Shown here: piece after piece, positions 32,143 through 41,998 of the stretch | Layout of the letters: the number at the start of each line of letters is the position of its first letter | Position numbering within the stretch: position 1 is the stretch's first letter | DNA from: Hyphomicrobium sp. CS1GBMeth3 | GTDB taxonomy: Bacteria > Pseudomonadota > Alphaproteobacteria > Rhizobiales > Hyphomicrobiaceae | Direction of reading: 5' to 3' | Length of the DNA: 64,000 bases | Assembly (NCBI RefSeq): GCF_900117455.1 | Contig: NZ_FPHO01000002.1 | Coordinates: 620,001-684,000 of the forward strand | Notes under the pieces: generated by a model | Databases searched by the model: none | Told to the model about the DNA's origin: nothing | The model's input: only the letters and a program-made list of their open reading frames with translations | Made by a program: the position numbers and the translations under genes

Positions 32143-33442
32143 GCGCACTCCCCCCTGCTCCGATGCGCTGAACGATGAAGATGCCTGTCTTGTCGGCGGC
32201 CTCGATCAACTCCCTGGATCCGCCAGCACCTTGTGGGGCGACGTCGGCGATCACGATGCCAGCGTATCCGGCCGCGCCCGCGTCGGAAATGGCGCCTGGC
32301 GTTAGGTCATCGAAGTTGCGCAGCCCTACGACGCCGCGACGGCGGTGGGTCAGGCTCGCCCATTGGCGCAGGTTCGTTGCACGCTCGATTGTGGCGCCCA
32401 CGCCTTCGTTGCCCGCTTCCACCGACAGCACATGATTGCGCACGACGACGACGGCACGTCCGACAGCGAACGGCGCCAGCGCTTCAATCGTCTTCGCTGC
32501 CTTGATGGCGTCGAGCGTCGCATGGGGCACGGGATTGGCGCGACCCAAGCATCGAAAGCCCATCGCGATGCTGCGCGGATCGAACTTTCGCAGGTTTTCA
32601 GTTACCTCCTGATCAATGACGCCTTCGACGAACACATGCGCAGCGTCCGCGCGCTGCAAGGTTTCCGCCCGATCGGCAACCAGAACCTTCTCCGCCTCCA
32701 CGGCAATGCCCGCGAGTCCGGCTGCACGCACGCCGTCGATGGTCGCGGGGCCGATGGCCGGCATGTCGACGCGCAGATCCTGGCTCGGCTTCGAGCGTTT
32801 GACGAGGACGCCGCGGGTGGTGCTGCCCTCGCCTGCGGTGCGCGCGGCGCGGGCCAGCATGCGATCCGTGCCCTCGGCGCCCTCGATGGCTAGCACGCGT
32901 CCACCACGCACGATCACGCTCTGGCCGATGTCATACGAGCCGAGGGCGCGGACAACGGAGAGCCCCTTGTTGATATCGGCTGCATCTTCCGGGGCGGCGC
33001 GCTCGCCGCCGAAGGGGCCCTTGTGCACCACGATCTCCGGCGCCGCGTCGCCGGGGCCGATAACGCGCAGGCCCTGCTCCTCGAAGAAGCGCACTACGCG
33101 GCGCAGCACGCTGTCATCGCCGCCGGAGGCGACGATGCGGATCAGCTTCGGCAGATAGCGGAAGAATCCGAGATCGGGCTTGAGCCCACTTAGTTCGGGG
33201 CGATGCACGCGGCCGACGATGACGAGGTCGGTTGTGCCAGCCGTCTTCAGCGCCCGCACCATGGCGCCGATCTGGCCCCAATTGACGACGGTGACCGGGT
33301 GAGGGCCGAAGTCGGCATCCGCCTCGCCGTCGATGGCGACGATGGACACCGGCAGGCCGCGGGACGCGGCGCTGTCGGCGATCTCGCGCGGCACGCCACC
33401 GCCTCCAGCCAGTATTCCGAGCCGCCGTATGCCGCTTGTCAT
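32135..33442 (-). CDS. lpxI: UDP-2,3-diacylglucosamine pyrophosphatase LpxI
   Basis: 435 residues if started at 33442 (MTSGIRRLGILAGGGGVPRE). LpxI hydrolyses UDP-2,3-diacylglucosamine to lipid X in bacteria lacking LpxH. The conserved GGGGVPREI near the N-terminus and a long C-terminal domain with GPATIDGVRAAGLAGIAVEA mark the family. This frame continues upstream to 33505, but the internal ATG begins the conserved part. Its C-terminus is longer than usual: residues 290-435 (KFDPRSIAMGFRCLGRANP onward) continue past the usual end of about 280 residues. Confidence 0.88.
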   Translation of the reverse strand: MTSGIRRLGILAGGGGVPREIADSAASRGLPVSIVAIDGEADADFGPHPVTVVNWGQIGAMVRALKTAGTTDLVIVGRVHRPELSGLKPDLGFFRYLPKLIRIVASGGDDSVLRRVVRFFEEQGLRVIGPGDAAPEIVVHKGPFGGERAAPEDAADINKGLSVVRALGSYDIGQSVIVRGGRVLAIEGAEGTDRMLARAARTAGEGSTTRGVLVKRSKPSQDLRVDMPAIGPATIDGVRAAGLAGIAVEAEKVLVADRAETLQRADAAHVFVEGVIDQEVTENLRKFDPRSIAMGFRCLGRANPVPHATLDAIKAAKTIEALAPFAVGRAVVVVRNHVLSVEAGNEGVGATIERATNLRQWASLTHRRRGVVGLRNFDDLTPGAISDAGAAGYAGIVIADVAPQGAGGSRELIEAADKTGIFIVQRIGAGGSAHE

Positions 33443-33523
33443 GGGTTCCTGTCGCCTGCCGCTCGTCCCGGCAAGGCTATAGGATAGGCGGACGCTTGCA
33501 GGCAACGGTTAGCGGCTTGGTCA

Positions 33524-33561
33524 TAAAAGAAAAACCGGCAGCGGCGGTGCGCTGCCGGTTT
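33524..33561 (-). terminator. intrinsic terminator of the mgsABC-gmaS transcript
   Basis: AAACCGGCAGC (33532-33542) pairs perfectly with GCTGCCGGTTT (33551-33561) around an 8-base loop. On the minus strand it is followed by TTTTTCTTTT. It lies about 300 bases past the gmaS stop, beyond the tandem repeats. Confidence 0.9.
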
Positions 33562-33620
33562 GCTGTCGCCCGCTGCCGATCCATGCAGACCGATGATTCA
33601 CGCCTCGGGGGTTTTCTTGC

Positions 33621-33837
33621 GCCGCCGATTCACGTCGCGCCTGATAGGCGGCGCGACGATCAGGGACTGTTCGGCGCCGCCGATTCACGTCACGCCTGAT
33701 AGGCGGCGCGACGATCGGGGACTGTTCGGCGCCGCCGATTCACGTCGCGCCTGGTAGGTGGCGCGACGATCGGGGACTGTTCGGCGCCGCCGATTCACGT
33801 CGCGCCTGGTAGGTGGCGCGACGATCGGGGCGACTCG
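33621..33837 (-). repeat. four tandem 55-bp repeats, each with a GTCGCGCC/GGCGCGAC hairpin
   Basis: Units start at 33621, 33676, 33731 and 33786 with exact 55-base spacing and no variable spacers. Each begins GCCGCCGATTCACG and contains GTCGCGCC-N8-GGCGCGAC. Unit 2 has one stem mismatch (GTCACGCC). Units 1-2 share the loop TGATAGGC, units 3-4 the loop TGGTAGGT. Unit 4 is cut short at its end. Just before unit 1, a degenerate partial copy (CGATGATTCACGCC then TCGGGGG) lacks the hairpin. On the minus strand they lie in the 3' untranslated region of gmaS. Confidence 0.92.
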
Positions 33838-33856
33838 GGCCCGAGGCGATCATGGT

Positions 33857-35212
33857 CTAGACGTCGAGCGTGTGGTCGCGCTCCCACTGCGTGAAGTGGG
33901 TGGCGAAGCTGTTCCACTCGCCTTGCTTGAGCTTAATGTAAGACGCCGAGAACTCCTCGCCGAGCGCCTGCTTGAGGCCCGTGTCCTTGTCGAAGGCGCG
34001 GATCGCGTCGAGCAAGTTGAGCGGCAGCTTCGGCGCGTCTTTGACGGTATGGCCGTCCTGGTACATGTCAATGTCGAGGCGCTTACCCGGATGGGCGTTG
34101 CGCTCGATACCGTTCAGGCCGGCCGCGATGACGACGGCCTGCAGCAGGTACGGATTGACCGCGCCGTCCGGCAGGCGGAGCTCGAAGCGGCCCTTGCCCG
34201 GCACGCGCACCATGTGGGTGCGGTTGTTGCCGGTCCAGGTCACGCTGTTTGGGGACCATGTCGCGCCCGAGATGGTCCGCGGCGCGTTGATGCGCTTGTA
34301 GGAGTTGACGGTGGGGTTGGTGATGGCCGCAAGCGCTTCCGCGTGCTGCATGATGCCGCCGAGGAAGTTGTAGCCCTGCTGAGACAGGCCCATCTCGTCG
34401 GACTGCTCGTAGAACTTGTTGGTCTTGCCCGTCGGCGCATCCCATACCGAGATGTGGACGTGGCAGCCGTTGCCGGTAAGGTTCGAGAAGGGCTTCGGCA
34501 TGAAGGTGGCGCGAAGGCCGTGCTTCTCGGCGATCGTCTTCACCATGTACTTGAAGAACGAGTGCCGGTCGGCGGTGATAAGCGCATCGTCGAAGTTCCA
34601 GTTCATCTCGAACTGGCCGTTGGCGTCCTCGTGATCGTTCTGGTAGGGGCCCCAGCCCAGCTCCAGCATGTAATCGCAGATTTCGGCGATGACATCGTAG
34701 CGTCGCGTCAGGGCCTGCTGATCGTAGCAGGGCTTGGACGCCTGATCCTTCGAGTCCGAGATCGCGGTGCCGTCCGCGTTGATCAGGAAGTATTCACATT
34801 CGACGCCGGTCTTGACGCGCAGGCCCTTCTCAGCGGCCTTGTCGACGAGCTTCTTGAGCACGACGCGGGGAGCCTGGGCAACGTGCTTGTCCTCCATCAC
34901 AAGGTAAGAGGGAACCCAGGCAACTTCGGGCTTCCAGGGGAGCTGGATCAATCCCGTTGGATCGGGCATGCCGAACATGTCGGGATGCGCCGGCGTCATG
35001 TCGAGCCAGGTCGCGAAACCTGCGAAGCCCGCGCCGTCCTTCTGGATCTCAGCGATCGCCGCGGCCGGCACCAGCTTGGCGCGTTGGAAGCCGAACAAGT
35101 CAGTGAAGGAGATCATGAAGTAGCGGATGCCGCGCTCTTTCGCGATCGCAGCCAAATCGTCGACAGCCTTTATGCTGTGTTCTTTGCCAATAGAGGCGAG
35201 GTCTTGTGTCAT
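33857..35212 (-). CDS. gmaS: gamma-glutamylmethylamide synthetase GmaS (glutamine synthetase type III/GlnT-like)
   Basis: 451 residues of glutamine synthetase fold. The beta-grasp part holds RYFMISFTDLFGFQRAKLVP; the catalytic part holds VECEYFLI, NGQFEMNWNFDDAL, the ATP-binding FMPKPFSNLTGNGCHVHIS and RTHMVRVPGKGRFELRLPDG. GmaS ligates methylamine to glutamate with ATP. It is told from GlnT mainly by context: it follows mgsABC and an Amt gene. The spacing to mgsC is 120 bases and includes a large palindrome. The ribosome site is weak (GGGGAA, distant). If no N-methylglutamate dehydrogenase exists in the genome, GlnT-like glutamine synthesis is the alternative. Confidence 0.75.
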   Translation of the reverse strand: MTQDLASIGKEHSIKAVDDLAAIAKERGIRYFMISFTDLFGFQRAKLVPAAAIAEIQKDGAGFAGFATWLDMTPAHPDMFGMPDPTGLIQLPWKPEVAWVPSYLVMEDKHVAQAPRVVLKKLVDKAAEKGLRVKTGVECEYFLINADGTAISDSKDQASKPCYDQQALTRRYDVIAEICDYMLELGWGPYQNDHEDANGQFEMNWNFDDALITADRHSFFKYMVKTIAEKHGLRATFMPKPFSNLTGNGCHVHISVWDAPTGKTNKFYEQSDEMGLSQQGYNFLGGIMQHAEALAAITNPTVNSYKRINAPRTISGATWSPNSVTWTGNNRTHMVRVPGKGRFELRLPDGAVNPYLLQAVVIAAGLNGIERNAHPGKRLDIDMYQDGHTVKDAPKLPLNLLDAIRAFDKDTGLKQALGEEFSASYIKLKQGEWNSFATHFTQWERDHTLDV

Positions 35213-35250
35213 AGCCTATTGTTCCCCAAACCTGGGTTGTCGTTTCCCCT

Positions 35251-35296
35251 AGAATTTCGAAATTCTTCGCTCGTTATTTTTAGGAGTCGAAGAATT
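35251..35296 (-). promoter_or_regulatory. palindrome and hairpin between mgsC and gmaS
   Basis: AGAATTTCGAAATTCT (35251-35266) is a perfect 16-base palindrome. Its right arm AATTCTTCG (35261-35269) also pairs with CGAAGAATT (35288-35296) across 18 bases. The two pairings are mutually exclusive in RNA. It could be an operator, an RNA processing site or an internal attenuator between mgsC and gmaS. It lies in an AT-rich island within GC-rich DNA. Confidence 0.5.
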
Positions 35297-35332
35297 TTGT
35301 TCGCCCCGGACTGGTGCCCGAGGCGAACGCGC

Positions 35333-36661
35333 TTAAAGTTTATCCTGTCCGGGTATCCAACCCGTGCCAGCGAGTGGCACCCGCGCCATGGCGGCCGCCT
35401 CGATGGTCAACGCGCAGAGATCTTCCGGCTCCAAGTTGTGCACGTGATTGTGGCCTGCCGCGCGGGCGATGGTCTGCAGCTCGAGCGTCATGACCTTGAG
35501 GTAATTGGCCAGGCGGCGACCGGCACGGATCGGATCGAGGCGCTGGGACAGCTCCGGATCCTGCGTCGTGATGCCGGCCGGATCGCGTCCCTCGTGCCAG
35601 TCGTCGTAGGCACCAGCCGTGGTGTTGAGCTTCTCGTAGTCACCCTCGAGCGACGGGTCGTTGTCACCGAGAGCCACAAGCGCCGCGGTGCCGATGGCCA
35701 CGGCGTCCGCACCGAGTGCCAGCGCCTTTGCGACATCCGCGCCGTTGCGGATGCCGCCCGAGACGATCAGCTGCACCTTGCGGTGCATGCCGAGGTCCTG
35801 CAGCGCCTGAACAGCGGGACGGATGCATGCGAGCGTCGGCTGGCCGACGTGCTCGATGAAGACTTCCTGAGTGGCCGCGGTGCCGCCCTGCATGCCGTCA
35901 ACGACGACGACATCGGCGCCAGCCTTCACGGCGAGGGCGACGTCGTAGTACGGGCGCGCGCCGCCGACCTTGATGTATATCGGCTTCTCCCAGTCGGTAA
36001 TCTCGCGCAACTCGAGGATCTTGATCTCGAGATCGTCGGGGCCGGTCCAGTCGGGATGGCGGCACGACGAGCGCTGGTCGATGCCCTTCGGCAGCGTGCG
36101 CATCTCGGCGACGCGATCGGAGATCTTCTGTCCGAGAAGCATGCCGCCGCCACCGGGCTTCGCGCCCTGACCGACGACGACCTCGATGGCATCGGCGCGG
36201 CGCAGGTCGTCCGGGTTCATACCATAGCGCGACGGCAGGTACTGATAGACCAGCTTCTCGGAATGGCCACGCTCCTCGGGCGTCATACCGCCGTCACCCG
36301 TCGTGGTCGAGGTGCCGGCGAGTGTTGCGCCACGGCCGAGCGCTTCCTTCGCGTTGCCCGACAACGCGCCGAAGCTCATGCCGGCAATGGTGATCGGGAT
36401 CTTGAGCTCGATCGGCTTCTTGGCGTAGCGGGTGCCCAGCGTAACGGCCGTCGAGCACTTCTCGCGATAGCCTTCCAGCGGGTAGCGCGACATGGACGCG
36501 CCAAGGAAGAGCAGATCATCGAAGTGCGGAAGCCTGCGCTTGGCGCCGCCACCGCGGATGTCATAGATGCCCGTCTGAGCGGCGCGGCGGATCTCCGACA
36601 GCGTGTAGTCGTCGAAGGTTGCGGACTTGCGGGGCGTGGTCGGCGGGTTCTGGTAGCTCAT
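35333..36661 (-). CDS. mgsC: N-methylglutamate synthase subunit C (glutamate synthase FMN domain, GlxD-like)
   Basis: 442 residues, matching the FMN-binding synthase domain of GltB. Visible are ITIAGMSFGALSGNAKEALGRGA, GQGAKPGGGGMLLGQKI, KVGGARPYYDVALAVKAGADVVVVDGMQGGT and the phosphate-binding LIVSGGIRNGADVAKALALGADAVAIG. I see no clustered cysteines like the 3Fe-4S site of GltB. With MgsA and MgsB it transfers the methylamino group of gamma-glutamylmethylamide to 2-oxoglutarate. Its ATG overlaps the mgsB stop by one base. Confidence 0.78.
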   Translation of the reverse strand: MSYQNPPTTPRKSATFDDYTLSEIRRAAQTGIYDIRGGGAKRRLPHFDDLLFLGASMSRYPLEGYREKCSTAVTLGTRYAKKPIELKIPITIAGMSFGALSGNAKEALGRGATLAGTSTTTGDGGMTPEERGHSEKLVYQYLPSRYGMNPDDLRRADAIEVVVGQGAKPGGGGMLLGQKISDRVAEMRTLPKGIDQRSSCRHPDWTGPDDLEIKILELREITDWEKPIYIKVGGARPYYDVALAVKAGADVVVVDGMQGGTAATQEVFIEHVGQPTLACIRPAVQALQDLGMHRKVQLIVSGGIRNGADVAKALALGADAVAIGTAALVALGDNDPSLEGDYEKLNTTAGAYDDWHEGRDPAGITTQDPELSQRLDPIRAGRRLANYLKVMTLELQTIARAAGHNHVHNLEPEDLCALTIEAAAMARVPLAGTGWIPGQDKL

Positions 36662-37347
36662 CAGTAGGCGTCCGCGTTGTCGATGTTGAAGTTGTATAGC
36701 TTGCGGGCAGAGCCGAAGCGCTTGAACTCGGAAGTCTTCACGCTGTTGACGCCTGCCTTTTTCAGGAGCTCGGACAGCACGTCGTGGTGCTCCTGGCGCA
36801 TCTCCTTCTCGATACAATCGGCGCCGAGACTCTTGACGCTTCCGCGCACGAAGAGCTTAGCCTCGTAGATCGAATCTCCGAGGGCATCGCCTGCGTCACC
36901 GAGCACAACGAGGTTGCCGGTCTGCGCCATGAAGGCGGACATGTGGCCGATGTTGCCTTTGACGATGATGTCGATACCCTTCATCGAGATGCCGCAGCGC
37001 GACGAAGCATTGCCCTCGATAAGGAGCAGGCCGCCGCGTCCGGTGGCGCCAGCGTACTGGCTGGCGTCACCTTTGATGATCACGCGGCCCGACATCATAT
37101 TTTCCGCGGTGCCGGGGCCAGACGAGCCGTGGACAACCACGGTCGCCTTCTTGTTCATGCCGGCGCAATAATATCCGACCGGTCCGCGAATATTGACCGT
37201 GACGGGTGCGTCGAGGCCGACTGCGACGGCGTGCCTGCCGCGCGGATTGAGCACTTCCCATTCGGTCTCGTTGGTACCGTCTTGAATTTTGTGCAGGCTC
37301 TCGTTGAGCTCGCGGAGCGGAGTGGTTTCGAGGTCGATAGATGGCAT
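36661..37347 (-). CDS. mgsB: N-methylglutamate synthase subunit B (GXGXG domain, GlxC-like)
   Basis: 228 residues. A right-handed beta-helix of the GltB C-terminal type: G-rich turns in GPVGYYCAGMNKKATVVVHG, SGRVIIKGDASQYAGATGRGG and GNLVVLGDAGDALGDSIYEA. It joins the amidotransferase and FMN subunits structurally. Six bases after mgsA and overlapping mgsC, so clearly one operon. Confidence 0.78.
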   Translation of the reverse strand: MPSIDLETTPLRELNESLHKIQDGTNETEWEVLNPRGRHAVAVGLDAPVTVNIRGPVGYYCAGMNKKATVVVHGSSGPGTAENMMSGRVIIKGDASQYAGATGRGGLLLIEGNASSRCGISMKGIDIIVKGNIGHMSAFMAQTGNLVVLGDAGDALGDSIYEAKLFVRGSVKSLGADCIEKEMRQEHHDVLSELLKKAGVNSVKTSEFKRFGSARKLYNFNIDNADAY

Positions 37348-37353
37348 AGTTTC

Positions 37354-38250
37354 TCAGCGCTCCCAGAAGTAGACGGTCGCGGGCTCTGGCTCCCAGACTT
37401 TGGCGTTCTCGATGCCGGGAAGACCGGCAAGAGCGCGGTACTCGGAGCCGAAGGCCACGTATTGATCGGTTTCGGCCAGCACGGCCGGCTTGCAGGCGAT
37501 CGGATCGCGCACAACGCCGAAGCCATTCTTGGTACCGACGACGAAGGTGAAGAAGCCGTCGAGGTCCTCAAGGCTCTTCTCGAGCGCCTCGCCGAGGTTC
37601 AGGCCCTGGTTCATGCGCCATGTCAGGTAGGCGGCCGCGACCTCGCTATCGTTGGCCGTCTCGAAGGTGATCCCGTCATGACGCAGCTCGCGACGCAGGT
37701 TGTTGTGGTTCGACAGCGAGCCATTGTGCACCAGGCACTGGTCGGTGCCGGTCGAGAAGGGATGCGCGCCGAGCGTGGTGACAGCGCTCTCCGTGGCCAT
37801 GCGGGTGTGGCCGATGGCGTGTGTGCCCTTCATCTTCGAAAGCTCGAACTGGCGCGCGACCTCGGTCGGATAGCCGACCTCCTTGTAGATCTCGATCGCC
37901 TCGCCGGAGCCCATGATGCGCACGCTCGGGAATTTTTCGCGCACTGCCTGGCGGACGGAGTCGGCATCCTCGGCCGGGACCGTCAGAACGGCGTGGGTCG
38001 ACTTGACGTCGAGCTTCACCTTGGTATCGACCTCGCGCTCAATGGCCTTGGCGAGATCGGCGAAGTCCTTGTCGGGCGTCGCCGACTGCAGCGTGATCTT
38101 GACCTTACCCGACTTCGGCGCTCCGTAGACGGCAAAGCCTGCCGAATCCGGACCGCGCTCGCACATCGTGGCAAGCATCCCGGCTGTCAGCTCTCCGAGC
38201 CGCGGCTCGAGCGCCTTGTCCTTAATGAATAGTCCGACAATTCCACACAT
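37354..38250 (-). CDS. mgsA: N-methylglutamate synthase subunit A (class II glutamine amidotransferase-like, GlxB-like)
   Basis: 298 residues. N-terminal nucleophile hydrolase: MCGIVGLFIKDK exposes Cys2 after Met removal. HAIGHTRMATES, LVHNGSLSNHNNLRREL and ANDSEVAAAYL are amidotransferase motifs. In N-methylglutamate synthase it would cleave the gamma-glutamyl bond of gamma-glutamylmethylamide and release methylamine for transfer. First gene of the mgsABC-gmaS unit, with its own promoter region upstream. Confidence 0.78.
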   Translation of the reverse strand: MCGIVGLFIKDKALEPRLGELTAGMLATMCERGPDSAGFAVYGAPKSGKVKITLQSATPDKDFADLAKAIEREVDTKVKLDVKSTHAVLTVPAEDADSVRQAVREKFPSVRIMGSGEAIEIYKEVGYPTEVARQFELSKMKGTHAIGHTRMATESAVTTLGAHPFSTGTDQCLVHNGSLSNHNNLRRELRHDGITFETANDSEVAAAYLTWRMNQGLNLGEALEKSLEDLDGFFTFVVGTKNGFGVVRDPIACKPAVLAETDQYVAFGSEYRALAGLPGIENAKVWEPEPATVYFWER

Positions 38251-38292
38251 GGTCTGGCGGTCCCCGTAACTCCTCAGTCGATCATGAAATGG

Positions 38293-38321
38293 ATGTTAAC
38301 AGGCCCACCCCGCGAATTCAA
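38293..38321 (-). promoter_or_regulatory. putative sigma70-type promoter of mgsABC-gmaS
   Basis: On the minus strand TTGAAT (38316-38321) and TAACAT (38293-38298) are separated by 17 bases, about 43 bases from the mgsA ATG. Each hexamer matches four of six consensus bases. No sigma54 GG-N10-GC element was found there. Confidence 0.4.
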
Positions 38322-38454
38322 CTGTCACGAATAAAGTTTTCCTGTGAGGATAGAAACCGGCGCGTGTTTCGAGGGCTACGGAGCGATCGGACGTGGCATC
38401 GGAGGCCCATGCGCTCATGTCCGGGAGGCCGCTTCGGCCCGCGGAGAGTCGCAG

Positions 38455-38486
38455 AAAAAAGGGCGCGCACCGTTCCGTCCGCGCCC
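38455..38486 (-). terminator. intrinsic terminator after the amt-small protein unit
   Basis: On the minus strand GGGCGCG (from 38486) pairs with CGCGCCC (to 38461) around a 12-base loop, followed by TTTTTT. It lies 29 bases after the 72-residue protein, separating this unit from mgsABC. Confidence 0.85.
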
Positions 38487-38514
38487 TCAGTTTGCAATGC
38501 GTTCGCGGCCGTTA

Positions 38515-38733
38515 TCAGTACTCGTCGATCGCCTGCTCGATGAGCTGCTTCTTGTTGGCGTGCTGCTCATCGTATTTCAGGTCGGCTGCTTCCTGACGCA
38601 TCTGGACGATGTGCCAGCCAAGCCAGAACGCGACGCCGGCTATAACCAGGATCGTCTCCGTTCCCTGGAACGGATAAATGGCGCCGACGTCCTTGAGATC
38701 GACCGCCCAGCTCGTAATTCCGTTCGTCGACAT
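38515..38733 (-). CDS. small single-pass membrane protein downstream of amt (72 aa)
   Basis: Not a family I can name. 72 residues: an N-terminal ~27 residues (MSTNGITSWAVDLKDVGAIY) that may be amphipathic, one membrane helix at about 30-47 (ILVIAGVAFWLGWHIVQ) and a charged C-terminal helix rich in K, E, D and Q ending QLIEQAIDEY. A strong GAGGAG precedes the ATG. It sits 83 bases after amt and before a terminator, so it is probably co-transcribed only with amt. The site is where glnK or a similar Amt partner usually lies; a role as Amt accessory subunit is inferred. Confidence 0.75.
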   Translation of the reverse strand: MSTNGITSWAVDLKDVGAIYPFQGTETILVIAGVAFWLGWHIVQMRQEAADLKYDEQHANKKQLIEQAIDEY

Positions 38734-38816
38734 GCTCTTCTCCTCATGAAGCTCGGTTGTCGGTTGCGCCGGCGGAGCGGAGCGCGCGGTCGCCCGCCCC
38801 GCCGGCATCATTCACG

Positions 38817-40226
38817 TCATCGTGCGATGCCGTTGTAGGCTGCCTTTTCCGCGGCCTGCACTTCGAGGATCGAGGCCCGGCGGCTCTCCTCGGTGGAGAA
38901 ATCGAGGCCCATCAGCTCAACGTCTCGCGGCACGCGCAGCAAGCCGAACAGGTTGAGGGTCCATGCCACGATGAACCCGGGGAAGAACCCGAGCACAAAG
39001 AACATGATCAACGCGCCGACGAAATTGCCGAGCGGGTTGATGGCGGCAAAGCCCTCGAACGGCGAGGACGGTTGCCCCCACAGCATGAAGCCCGCGATGA
39101 CCAAACCGGCGAAGCCCGAGTACCCGTGCACCGCGACGGCGCCTACCGCATCGTCGATCTTGAAGCGACGCTCGACGAAGTAGTGCATTTTGTTGGCGAT
39201 TATCGCGCCAGCTGCGCCGATGAACATGGCCTGGATCGGATGATAGAGGTCGTTGCCGGCCGAGGCGCAGATGATGCCCGCAAGCCCGCCGGAGTAGGTC
39301 CAGAATGGATCACCCTTTGAGATAATGTAGGCTGCCAAAAGCCCGCCCGAAAGCGACATCAGGAAGTTGAAGGTGATGGCGCTCAATGTTGTCGGGGCAA
39401 GGTAGATGTTGGTCGCCGTCCAGGTCTGGCCAGTGATCTGGCCGCCGATCGCCTCGGGGTTGATCAATGGCACGTTGCAGGCCGCGTAGAAGCCCCAGAA
39501 GCCGGTGTAGATCAGGAACAGGCCGATCGTGACCAGCCACGGGTTGCGCGGCGGGATATCGCGTGGGGTGCCGTCCGGGCGGAACTTGCCGATGCGCGGC
39601 CCGAGCACGATCAGCACGCCGAGCGCGAAGCCGCCGGCGATGGCGTGAATGACACCCGACGCGTAGGCATCGTGGTAGCCGAGCAGCTTCACCATCCAGC
39701 CCTGAGAGCTCCAGCCCCAGGCCGCGTCGACGATCCAGGCGAAGGAGCCGATGACGACGGCGAGAATCCAGAAGGCGCCGGAACGGATCCGCTCGATGAG
39801 CGAACCCGAGACGATAGAAGCCGCCGTCCAGGAAAACAGCAGGAATGCTGCCCAGAACACGCCATTCAGCCTGTGCCAGAGGGCGGCCTGCTCAGCATCG
39901 ACGCCGAGGTTTGGGCTCGGGCCGGAAAGATGCGTGCCCATCAACGCGTTCCACGGCTCGGCCTGCGGCGCGTCGATCAAGCCGCCGGTGATGCCCGGGC
40001 CGTTCTGAAAGGCAAAATAGATCCACCAGCCGAAGAAGAAGAACGTGATGGTGACCAGCGGGATCGCCATCGTGTTCTTCATCAGCGTGTGGAGGTGGTT
40101 CCGTTGGCGGCTGACCCCGACCTCGTACATGCAAAAGCCCACGTGGATCAGGAACATCAGGACAACGGTTACCCAATAGTAAAACTCCGTGAAAATGACG
40201 TTCACGGCGTCCATGTTGGTATCCAT
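38817..40226 (-). CDS. amt: Amt-family ammonium/methylammonium transporter
   Basis: 469 residues, eleven or so helices. The conserved aspartate and pore histidines are kept: Asp186 and His194 in HDAYASGVIHAIAGG (E. coli AmtB D160, H168) and His367 in VAVHGYSGFAG (H318). SLIERIRSGAF and GDPFWTYSGGLAGI follow the family. Around the second gating phenylalanine the sequence is GFYAACN instead of GFNAGSA, and the loop at residues 80-110 is long. Together with mgsABC-gmaS next door this suggests methylammonium as substrate. There is no glnK partner; a 72-residue membrane protein follows instead. Confidence 0.88.
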   Translation of the reverse strand: MDTNMDAVNVIFTEFYYWVTVVLMFLIHVGFCMYEVGVSRQRNHLHTLMKNTMAIPLVTITFFFFGWWIYFAFQNGPGITGGLIDAPQAEPWNALMGTHLSGPSPNLGVDAEQAALWHRLNGVFWAAFLLFSWTAASIVSGSLIERIRSGAFWILAVVIGSFAWIVDAAWGWSSQGWMVKLLGYHDAYASGVIHAIAGGFALGVLIVLGPRIGKFRPDGTPRDIPPRNPWLVTIGLFLIYTGFWGFYAACNVPLINPEAIGGQITGQTWTATNIYLAPTTLSAITFNFLMSLSGGLLAAYIISKGDPFWTYSGGLAGIICASAGNDLYHPIQAMFIGAAGAIIANKMHYFVERRFKIDDAVGAVAVHGYSGFAGLVIAGFMLWGQPSSPFEGFAAINPLGNFVGALIMFFVLGFFPGFIVAWTLNLFGLLRVPRDVELMGLDFSTEESRRASILEVQAAEKAAYNGIAR

Positions 40227-40735
40227 GGGTGTCTCCCCCGTTTTTCTTTGTTCAGAGTTGACTGTGCTGAAACATTTTTTGACACGCGGAAAACTGCGGC
40301 AACTTGGCGCGTTGAGTCAAGGGGCGCCAGACAAAGAAGCAGCACATTGCTTATCCTCTGGGCATATGGAGGCCAGCGGATGGCTTTTGCTTTAATTTAA
40401 GTAAATATTTTTTCTTATTGTGAAATCCGGTGGCGATGGTTTTGCCCGATATTTCATCAGCGGCCGGCTAAGTTCGTCCCGTTGCGATAGCGAGAGCCCC
40501 CTCCCCTTCAGCCACTGCTCCATTCCATCGCCGGACGGGTGTCGGTTGGCCTGCGCGCCCGGCCACGTGTCGAGGGGCACCAGGACATCCAGCCTCTACC
40601 GCGCCCGTCCTCGATGCGGCGGTTGCCACGTGCGCACAGTCGCCGTTCGGTGTAACGTTTTTTTGTTTGCTGTCGGCTTGGCGTAAGTGTCAGTAATTGA
40701 ACGGGTCACAGTTTTTTTTTTGAAGCAAGGGGCGC
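40227..40735. other. 509-bp divergent control region between amt and the XRE-cupin regulator
   Basis: No gene seen. It holds a nested palindrome at 40305-40329, an AT-rich stretch at 40371-40430, and a run of about ten T at 40712-40721, fifteen bases before the regulator start. Both promoters must lie here; no clear sigma54 box was found on either strand. Confidence 0.6.
40305..40329. promoter_or_regulatory. nested palindrome, candidate operator upstream of amt
   Basis: TGGCGC (40305-40310) and GCGCCA (40324-40329) flank TTGAGTCAA (40312-40320), itself a palindrome. It lies 79-103 bases upstream of the amt start. The XRE-cupin protein encoded across the gap is the obvious candidate ligand, by inference. 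Confidence 0.4.
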
Positions 40736-41491
40736 ATGAGCCAGAAATCCGAAGCTACCGCCCGCAAATCCGCCAAGGCGCAAACGGCGTCCACTGATAG
40801 CTGCGCCGAGATCCCGGGGCGCAAGCTGCTCTCTCAAGAAGAGTTCGTCGAGGCGCTGCAATCGGTTGGCGGCAAGGATCAGGATCCCCACTCGCTGCAG
40901 GGCGCGCGCGACGGCATGCTCGAGGTGGCCATCGGCCGAGAGGTGCGCGCCTTCCGCAACAAGCTCGGCATCACGGCCTCCGACCTCGCTAAGGCGGCGG
41001 GCCTGTCGCTCGGCATGCTGTCCAAGATCGAGAATGGCGTCACCAGCGCTTCGCTGACGACGCTGCAGCGGCTCTCTCGCGCGCTCGGCGTGCCGGTGAC
41101 GGCGCTGTTCCGCCGCTTCGAGGAGCGGCGCGACGCGGTGTTCGTGTCAGCCGGGCAAGGCCTGCTGATCGAGCGGCGCGGCACGCGGGCCGGGCATCAA
41201 TATCAGCTTCTTGGTCACACGGGCGGCATCTCCGGGGGTGTCGTAGTCGAGCCCTATCTCATTACGCTGACGGAAGAGTCGGACGTCTTCCCACTGTTTC
41301 AGCATGCCGGGCTCGAGCTCATCTATATTCTCGAGGGTGAAGTGGTTTATCGCCACGCCGACAAGCTCTATCCGATGAGGCCCGGTGACAGTCTCTTCTT
41401 CGACGCGGATGCACCGCATGGGCCTGAAGAGCTTATCAAGCTGCCGGCTCGCTTCCTCTCGGTGATCAGCTACGCGCGCGAGCTGCCCTGA
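40736..41491 (+). CDS. XRE-family transcriptional regulator with C-terminal cupin sensor
   Basis: 251 residues. A basic, Ser/Ala-rich N-terminus of about 60 residues is followed by an HTH_3 domain (about 66-125: IGREVRAFRNKLGITASDLA, LSLGMLSKIENGVTSASLTT) and a cupin (about 175-250: GLELIYILEGEVVYRHADKL, PGDSLFFDADAPHGPE). Such proteins sense small metabolites and often flank the genes they control. It is divergent from amt and close to mgsABC-gmaS. Similar regulators sit beside glxBCD/gmaS clusters in other alphaproteobacteria, so control of this module is likely. Confidence 0.85.
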   Translation: MSQKSEATARKSAKAQTASTDSCAEIPGRKLLSQEEFVEALQSVGGKDQDPHSLQGARDGMLEVAIGREVRAFRNKLGITASDLAKAAGLSLGMLSKIENGVTSASLTTLQRLSRALGVPVTALFRRFEERRDAVFVSAGQGLLIERRGTRAGHQYQLLGHTGGISGGVVVEPYLITLTEESDVFPLFQHAGLELIYILEGEVVYRHADKLYPMRPGDSLFFDADAPHGPEELIKLPARFLSVISYARELP

Positions 41492-41500
41492 GCTTTCGCT

Positions 41501-41998
41501 TCATTCTTGCTCTTCAAGCCCATCGAATGCCGGCGGGTAGGCAACGCGGCCGGACTTGGCCCGCAAGCTTTCGTTGCTCAAGCTGGTCGCCATGAAGTAA
41601 GGGCCCGCGTAGGGCGATGAAAATCCTGTGGCTGTGTCGGTTTCAAATCCGAAGCGGTGGTAATAGGCGGGATATCCGAGGACGAAAACGGCTTGCCAAC
41701 CGGCTGCCTTGGCATGTTCAAGGCCGGCCCGGATCAACGCGCTGCCCACTCCGCCTCTCTGCCGCTCAGGCACGACCGCGACCGGTCCGAGGCCCAAGGC
41801 CTTGATCGGCGCGTCCAAGCGTGAAAACGCGATATAGCCGATAACGGCAGCCTCTTCGATCGACACGAGGCCGATCTCAATATCGCCAGCCTCGCGCAGG
41901 CGATCCACGAGATCCGCTTCGAGGCTGGTCGGAAATGCGGCGAGCAGTGTTGTCCGGATCGCGTTGCGCAAGGCGAGCGTTTCAGGAGCGATCCGCAT
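41501..41998 (-). CDS. GNAT-family N-acetyltransferase (YhbS-like)
   Basis: 165 residues. The acetyl-CoA loop is VVPERQRGGVGSALIRAGLEHA, followed by GWQAVFVLGYPAYYHRFGFE, which typifies the YhbS/UPF group. Substrate unknown. It ends nine bases from the convergent XRE-cupin gene. ATG at 41998 is used rather than the GTG in front of it. gmk lies 13 bases upstream in the same direction. Confidence 0.85.
   Translation of the reverse strand: MRIAPETLALRNAIRTTLLAAFPTSLEADLVDRLREAGDIEIGLVSIEEAAVIGYIAFSRLDAPIKALGLGPVAVVPERQRGGVGSALIRAGLEHAKAAGWQAVFVLGYPAYYHRFGFETDTATGFSSPYAGPYFMATSLSNESLRAKSGRVAYPPAFDGLEEQE

Follow-up and report, generated by a model that had tools for sequence, protein, structure and literature searches.

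The 64,000-nucleotide window analysed here, positions 620,001 to 684,000 of contig NZ_FPHO01000002.1 of Hyphomicrobium sp. CS1GBMeth3 (C2:620001-684000 in our labels), carries a seven-gene module that probably takes up methylamine and starts its assimilation by the N-methylglutamate pathway. The genome, G000 below, has 4.03 Mb in three contigs; other G numbers denote compared genomes, L numbers fetched loci and H numbers plasmid records. The features of the module are as follows.

33857..35212, minus strand: gmaS, predicted gamma-glutamylmethylamide synthetase, 451 aa (TIGR03105, match to 7cql, site residues)
35333..36661, minus strand: mgsC, predicted FMN-domain subunit of N-methylglutamate synthase, lacking the [3Fe-4S] cysteines (PF01645; D-W-D replaces the three Cys)
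36661..37347, minus strand: mgsB, GXGXG subunit (PF01493)
37354..38250, minus strand: mgsA, class-II glutamine amidotransferase-like subunit with N-terminus MCGIVG (PF13522 and PF13537)
38315..38353, minus strand: conserved element 5' of mgsA, candidate promoter or operator (same-genus alignment)
38453..38488, minus strand: terminator-like hairpin at the boundary of the amt and mgs units (hairpin and T run)
38515..38733, minus strand: small protein gene, 72 aa, single helix, likely Amt partner (homologues and position behind amt)
38817..40226, minus strand: amt, divergent transporter for (methyl)ammonium; Cys stands at the position of AmtB Ser219 (PF00909; clade and pore residues)
40227..40735, no strand: divergent promoter region between amt and the XRE-cupin gene (conserved blocks 5' of amt in three genomes)
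40736..41491, plus strand: XRE-cupin regulator (HTH_3 and Cupin_2)

Open frames were found for all seven genes, at or very near the coordinates of a first-pass annotation of the same DNA, and with the domain matches they bear out its gene set of Amt, small membrane protein, MgsABC, GmaS and XRE-cupin regulator. The mgsC start overlaps the mgsB stop (TGATG), and amt, the small gene, mgsABC and gmaS stand in identical order in Ruegeria conchae and Ponticoccus. We read the module as likely encoding the first half of a functional N-methylglutamate pathway by which a Hyphomicrobium-type methylotroph uses methylamine, with a probability of roughly 80%. The evidence is computational, and consists of gene families, active-site conservation, a second locus, the pairing of amt with the small gene, and a loss of cysteines. 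The first-pass view of the module as the uptake and assimilation end of this pathway agrees with the gene families and with the residues kept in GmaS.

The window GmaS scores 677 bits against TIGR03105, whose cut-off is 470, and 635 bits against the solved Rhodovulum GmaS (7cql). Its site residues were compared with those given in the available part of PMC7948447, the numbering being anchored on the YQNDHED and SGATW motifs and the comparison covering the catalytic residues and those of the ATP and methylamine sites. Residues K30, A48, Y147, Q175, D177, E179, E186, N188, W300 and R312 of that source are all kept. The counterparts in the window protein are K46, A64, E138, Y163, Y190, Q191, D193, E195, E202, N204, W205, H253, S255, K306, W319, R331 and R336, among which D193, E202 and R331 correspond to the catalytic Asp177, Glu186 and Arg312; among the residues checked, Tyr191 (F207 in the window) and the loop-end Ile305 (V324) differ. 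The positions of Glu304 and Asp50 of glutamine synthetase (GS) are occupied by W319 and A64, as in GmaS proper. By these residues the gene product is a gamma-glutamylmethylamide synthetase with its catalytic residues kept, and activity on methylamine is predicted. At E <= 1e-60, GmaS matches occur in 60 of 150 genomes of the order, own genome included (G089 at only 35% identity), and those of the 120 listed matches that carry an organism name are from Hyphomicrobium; the near relatives of G000 are of Hyphomicrobium type.

Next to gmaS stand three subunits in a row that resemble domains of glutamate synthase (GOGAT), which is the make-up of an N-methylglutamate synthase (NMGS). The amidotransferase, GXGXG and FMN domains of the GOGAT large subunit correspond to MgsA (class-II GATase), MgsB (GXGXG) and MgsC (Glu_synthase). 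MgsC is 82-88% identical to six plasmid references, including P. aminophilus and Methylobacterium DM1, and the genome has a single MgsC-like gene plus a separate GOGAT, whose GltB contains the cluster motif CIMMRKCHLNTC. Unlike GOGAT, the window Mgs consists of three separate chains, and its MgsC has no [3Fe-4S] ligands. When the cysteine pattern was scored as C-x5-C-x4-C in an alignment of 59 rows, all three cysteines were absent from 47 of the 47 scorable MgsC rows (one more was unscorable), these rows including many close relatives and 15 of the 59 being from Mesorhizobium, so that they are not independent. The replacement is D-W-D in 45 rows, E-W-D in one, and D-W-T in one early-ending row. 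A divergent MgsC-like set (52-53% identity) retains all three cysteines in 8/8 scorable rows, with two more unscorable. This divergent gmaS-mgsABC-like set (GmaS about 30%) lies near an Amt-small pair in several alphaproteobacterial contigs (L063:48-4836; L099:418-5165; L106:455-5121; L120:11929-16100), and is possibly a synthase for another amine.

What reaction would an MgsC without cluster ligands support? Because the iron-sulfur ligands are missing, a redox-neutral exchange of methylamine for the glutamate amino group, with FMN alone, is favoured; the absence fits such an exchange and does not prove it. Alternatively, MgsABC may depend on an external reductant acting straight on FMN, with no iron-sulfur relay in between. 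The part of PMC6237917 available to us gives the redox cofactor of NMGS as unknown, with NADH, NADPH or ferredoxin as candidates; it proposes 2-oxoglutarate as substrate, leaves the reductant open, and reports that mgsABC alone gave N-methylglutamate in P. putida. The lack of cluster cysteines in every scorable MgsC row speaks against this alternative, and we regard it as unlikely. Our literature search found no paper on NMGS with iron-sulfur and FMN. The title of a 1973 paper by Pollock and Hersh reportedly names FMN in 'oxidative catalysis', which we count against an external reductant as well.

Could the module be a GlnT/GlxBCD system of another reaction, such as plain glutamine and glutamate synthesis? 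The database names, 'type III glutamate--ammonia ligase' and 'FMN-binding glutamate synthase', would suit it. Against it stand the Trp and Ala at the GS base Glu304 and Asp50 positions, the GOGAT cluster ligands absent from MgsC, and the rhizobial gene neighbourhood: on S. meliloti pSymB and on a plasmid of R. leguminosarum, glnT-glxBCD adjoin sox and dimethylamine monooxygenase (dmm) genes. In a tree of GS and GmaS whose ordinary GS rows have very long branches and whose root is unsure, rhizobial GlnT groups with the GmaS of Aminobacter and P. aminophilus (96/94). The rhizobial glnT-glxBCD genes appear from tree and neighbours to belong to the same pathway family and make no contrast with it. 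We consider a GlnT/GlxBCD system of other reaction very improbable, and an ammonium-only GS/GOGAT reading was likewise rejected. The first-pass annotation had listed a GlxBCD/GlnT system of unknown reaction as an option and had set a GmaS-versus-GlnT phylogeny as a check; the neighbours and the grouping speak against the option, and the phylogeny does not separate two functions.

There is a further question, where the oxidation step of the pathway is encoded. The SoxB, SoxD, SoxA and SoxG proteins of the genome gave no tblastn match within the window, in line with the earlier statement that MgdABCD lies outside it. A candidate mgdABCD set (soxBDAG-like) is found on another contig from C3:200462; it includes the sole PF04267 (SoxD family) match of the genome (C3:201817), and a fae paralogue accompanies it (C3:205734). 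The main fae lies apart, at C2:1114756. Gene order there (L004, C3:193001-213000) is LysR on the minus strand, soxB, soxD, soxA, soxG, fae and sixA. SoxB and SoxA of the set pass the NCBIfam cut-offs. The best matches to SoxA are 75% in G138 and 73% in G049, where the set adjoins mgsABC-gmaS, and orthologues of the set adjoin mgsABC-gmaS in G182 and G207 too. The module is not self-contained, as had been supposed, because its mgdABCD candidate sits on another contig; an option of the first-pass annotation, a pathway split across the chromosome, fits the outcome of the genome-wide search for mgdABCD, which gave this candidate. A first mauA search of G000, made without a positive control, was empty; a repeat search gave matches in 5 of 60 family genomes, the same-genus G168 among them, and again none in G000, and a methylamine dehydrogenase route was rejected on this ground.

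Several observations were made around the second locus. Of the six same-genus genomes readable at this locus, five have the fae paralogue (L004:12683-13261) immediately after the mgd-like set; G206 lacks it. In Methyloversatilis, fae3 was induced about 12-fold on methylamine and the single fae3 mutant grew normally, according to the consulted part of PMC5023235. Upstream of the LysR-mgd locus is a weakly integrase-like gene (L004:4759-6144; 48 bits, cut-off 434). In some Hyphomicrobiaceae a divergent soxB/soxA-like pair (36-46% to the G000 set) is found beside mgsABC-gmaS (L182:13991-18433; also L173, L174 and L175); possibly it is a second kind of N-methylglutamate dehydrogenase.

If the module served nitrogen supply only, from methylamine or ammonium, no carbon would be used. 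Excerpts of PMC5023228 state that the pathway serves nitrogen in non-methylotrophs, the Amt family is primarily for ammonium, and G000 also has two ordinary Amts and GOGAT. The mgdABCD candidate with its fae paralogue, the main fae and 11 above-threshold matches to PQQ alcohol dehydrogenase are, on the other hand, what is expected of a methylotroph, and make a nitrogen-only role rather improbable.

How did the two loci come apart? All 8 same-genus genomes, G000 included, have gmaS. In 7 of them the sequence shows the gltA-lpxB side of the module, and wherever both sides are readable (5/8) the module lies between gltA-lpxB and gmk; the others are cut by contig or fragment ends. Upstream of mgsA we find Amt and the small gene in G000 and G206, orf135, an APC permease and mem226 in G182, G207 and G205, the APC permease and mem226 at a cut contig in G204, and a divergent sox pair in G168, G194 being cut. 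Both transporters are present in Hyphomicrobium sp. RBC040 (L107). The three-gene set of a 135-aa open reading frame (ORF), APC permease and 226-aa ORF in the transporter place is at L178:3238-6101, and also in L177, L181, L052 and L053. The mgd locus is readable in six same-genus genomes (G204 being cut, and G168 showing no more than a divergent soxB at 43%). A second mgsABC-gmaS with XRE-cupin regulator stands there in G182 and G207 (2/6), the regulator alone is retained in G194 and G206 (an orphan XRE2 between mgd and sixA), and nothing lies between fae and sixA in G000 and G205. In the gmaS tree, the mgd-locus copies group with those of genus g3 in a clade (100/99) separate from that of the window gene (99/98). 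The simplest reading suggests that the pathway became split when a second mgs-gmaS copy next to mgd was lost. Insertion at the mgd locus was rejected in favour of this loss, as we infer from the linked cluster of genus g3 and the orphan XRE2 of G194 and G206. Splitting through loss of a redundant copy would be a caution against calling pathways complete or incomplete from one cluster.

The transporter and its small neighbour form the second part of the module. Amt matches PF00909 and is called divergent because its 187 bits to TIGR00836 miss the cut-off of 343. As in the Amt/Mep/Rh family, the twin histidines (H194, H367) and the Asp160 position (D186) are kept; the Ser219 and Asp160 positions follow AmtB numbering. 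The small ORF starts at 38733. Its homologues at E <= 0.01 number 727, of which the best 120 were listed, and against its nearest named relative it shows dN 0.052 and dS 0.746; judged by these values it looks a real gene. The N-terminal half of the protein is nearly invariant in 25 aligned rows, a hydrophobic stretch judged by hydropathy covers residues 27-45, and the charge signal for topology is weak either way.

Is the small gene a regular companion of amt? A contig scan of named genomes with the small-protein alignment alone gave 118 relatives, of which 80 were kept, many being close relatives (Mesorhizobium, Ruegeria), and four were set aside as cut. In 76 of the 76 loci with upstream DNA the small gene is immediately preceded by a same-strand divergent Amt, at a gap of 14-98 bp (median 35). 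Among 58 loci with 3.6 kb on each side of the small gene, MgsC (>75%) is present in 39, GmaS (>60%) in 39, DmmC in 29 and SoxA in 26. The opposite direction was taken by a plasmid search with Amt, the small protein being unused, which gave 51 records (40 listed, 11 fetched). A small ORF is directly behind Amt in all eight fetched records of at least 33.9% identity (H61, H62, H63, H66, H67, H69, H70, H71) and in none of the three below 30% (H72, H79, H80), with an 88-aa ORF about 460 bp beyond Amt in H72; three more listed records above 41% (H64, H65, H68) are outside the count. A paralogous divergent Amt of G000 (49.6% identical; L202:5617-7310) has its own 63-aa one-helix partner, and the second Amt of Lutibaculum (L126) also has a small ORF behind it, while visual inspection of three frames over 500 bases shows none behind the two ordinary Amts of G000. 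Counted over Amts found independently of the small protein, the partner is present in 10/10 of the clade and 0/5 of the others. The 22 paired rows fall into a single clade of the Amt tree (100/100), outside which lie the 5 unpaired; the count is not independent, as 11 of the 22 were picked via the small protein. The Ser219 position is Cys in 20/22 paired and Ser in 5/5 unpaired Amts; Val and Thr are found in the Aminobacter and Methylobacterium rows, which are long-branched and of unsure placement. Homology among the most distant small-protein types is doubtful, because hardly anything beyond an aromatic stretch ahead of the helix is common to them.

Like AmtB-GlnK of Escherichia coli, the window has an Amt with an adjoining small partner gene, with the twin histidines and the Asp160 position kept; the difference is that no module gene matches a PII family and the partner is a one-helix membrane protein. 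Another small protein linked to an Amt is sP36 with AmtB1 of Methanosarcina mazei, described in the consulted part of PMC10714827 as an adaptor for the PII-like GlnK1 without a transmembrane helix; by that description the window protein differs, having a helix by hydropathy. We found no account of such a partner in the literature searched, which included parts of PMC7574528, PMC5520151, PMC10433425 and PMC10714827, with Chen 2012 and Gruffaz 2014 outside it, and the small gene apparently encodes an undescribed membrane-protein component. We tentatively propose, at somewhat less than even odds, that the Amt clade tied to methylated-amine use consists of two-subunit transporters, whose dedicated one-helix subunit, encoded right after the pore protein, replaces PII control or tunes the outer substrate site, altered from Ser219 to Cys, for methylammonium, and which in this module would feed an FMN-only MgsABC with no iron-sulfur relay or outside reductant. 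The small protein may instead be an independent membrane protein, a regulator or insertion chaperone encoded behind amt and not a lasting subunit. Its link to Amt is one of gene order and co-occurrence, which leaves room for this; the pairing, however, spans one Amt clade with several small-protein types, including the paralogous pair in G000, and we lean against independence while giving it substantial weight. At L071:6140-7570 a saccharopine-dehydrogenase-like protein lies behind an Amt-small pair at a locus where no mgs genes were found, and a polyamine link of that pair is possible. ORFs of equal length are present at L060, L061, L075 and L096.

Some observations weigh against the reading of the module as the front half of a methylamine pathway. 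SoxD and SoxG of the C3 set miss the NCBIfam thresholds (95.7 against 116.5 bits and 102.8 against 144 bits) but exceed those of Pfam; the set takes its name from its neighbourhood in relatives, and its domains by themselves would also suit a sarcosine oxidase (TIGR01372). With the assembly in three contigs, the two loci may stand at any distance from each other. At this locus of the genus, Amt-small occurs only in G000, G206 and L107 and four genomes carry the APC set, so Amt-small is not required for the module everywhere; the APC-set genomes were not searched for Amt-small elsewhere. In 19 of the 58 pair loci no MgsC above 75% is nearby, 6 of the 19 having the divergent set, and therefore the substrate of Amt-small need not be methylamine everywhere. 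Finally, the consulted part of PMC6237917 argues for 2-oxoglutarate plus a reductant as the NMGS substrates.

Regulation was considered from the noncoding DNA. The hairpin and T run between amt and mgs (61 nt within 38440-38500) has -26.7 kcal/mol, z -2.7, with 5 of 200 shuffles as good; the terminator claimed earlier at this place is supported by it, though the hairpin is missing from the output of a simple terminator scan. Within the genus, a 39-base element ahead of mgsA is conserved, TATCCTNNCAGGAAA followed by ATTCNTNNCAGTTGAAT; at like distance the first half is found in 6/7 (<=2 mismatches) and the second in 7/7 (<=3 mismatches), with patterns derived from the very alignment scored. With 2-3 mismatches allowed, no copy of the element turned up in front of amt, XREc, orf135 or mgdA. 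The promoter scan found 0 sigma-70-like sites against 1.8 expected, and Rfam gave no match in 33400-41700. An XRE-cupin relative (>60%) is present in 36 of the 58 loci described above; the family differs from that of TmaR, which is an AraC-type master regulator in Ruegeria according to excerpts of PMC13390433. Just behind gmaS, at 33619-33830, are 3.9 tandem copies of 55 bases, in each of which an inner inverted repeat can be made out by eye; a terminator-like hairpin comes next, at 33532-33561.

Together these features give the following scenario for the pathway. Methylammonium would enter via the divergent Amt, most likely complexed with the 72-aa single-helix protein. GmaS would join it to glutamate at the cost of ATP, and MgsA would free methylamine from the gamma-glutamyl amide inside the MgsABC complex. 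MgsC with FMN alone would then swap methylamine for the glutamate amino group, giving N-methylglutamate and ammonia with no external reductant, and MgdABCD, encoded on the other contig with the fae paralogue, would oxidise N-methylglutamate, yielding a C1 unit and regenerating glutamate. Both diverging units are probably under the control of XRE-cupin.

The N-methylglutamate pathway itself is already known from Ruegeria, Methylobacterium, Paracoccus aminophilus and Methyloversatilis, with which the window shares the GmaS, MgsABC and MgdABCD families and the mgsABC-gmaS order. What differs in G000 is the place of the mgd candidate, at a second locus with a fae paralogue, and within the genus the fixed position of the module described above. 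The amt and XRE genes already appear in marine methylamine clusters (legends of PMC7574528; amtB in PMC5520151), and the small partner gene is unnamed in those legends. The absent cluster ligands of MgsC make the NMGS reductant question left open in the consulted part of PMC6237917 answerable by a simple assay. What is apparently new is the conserved Amt partner, which would give a handle on how bacteria distinguish methylammonium from ammonium, and may be a component of a widely spread amine uptake system.

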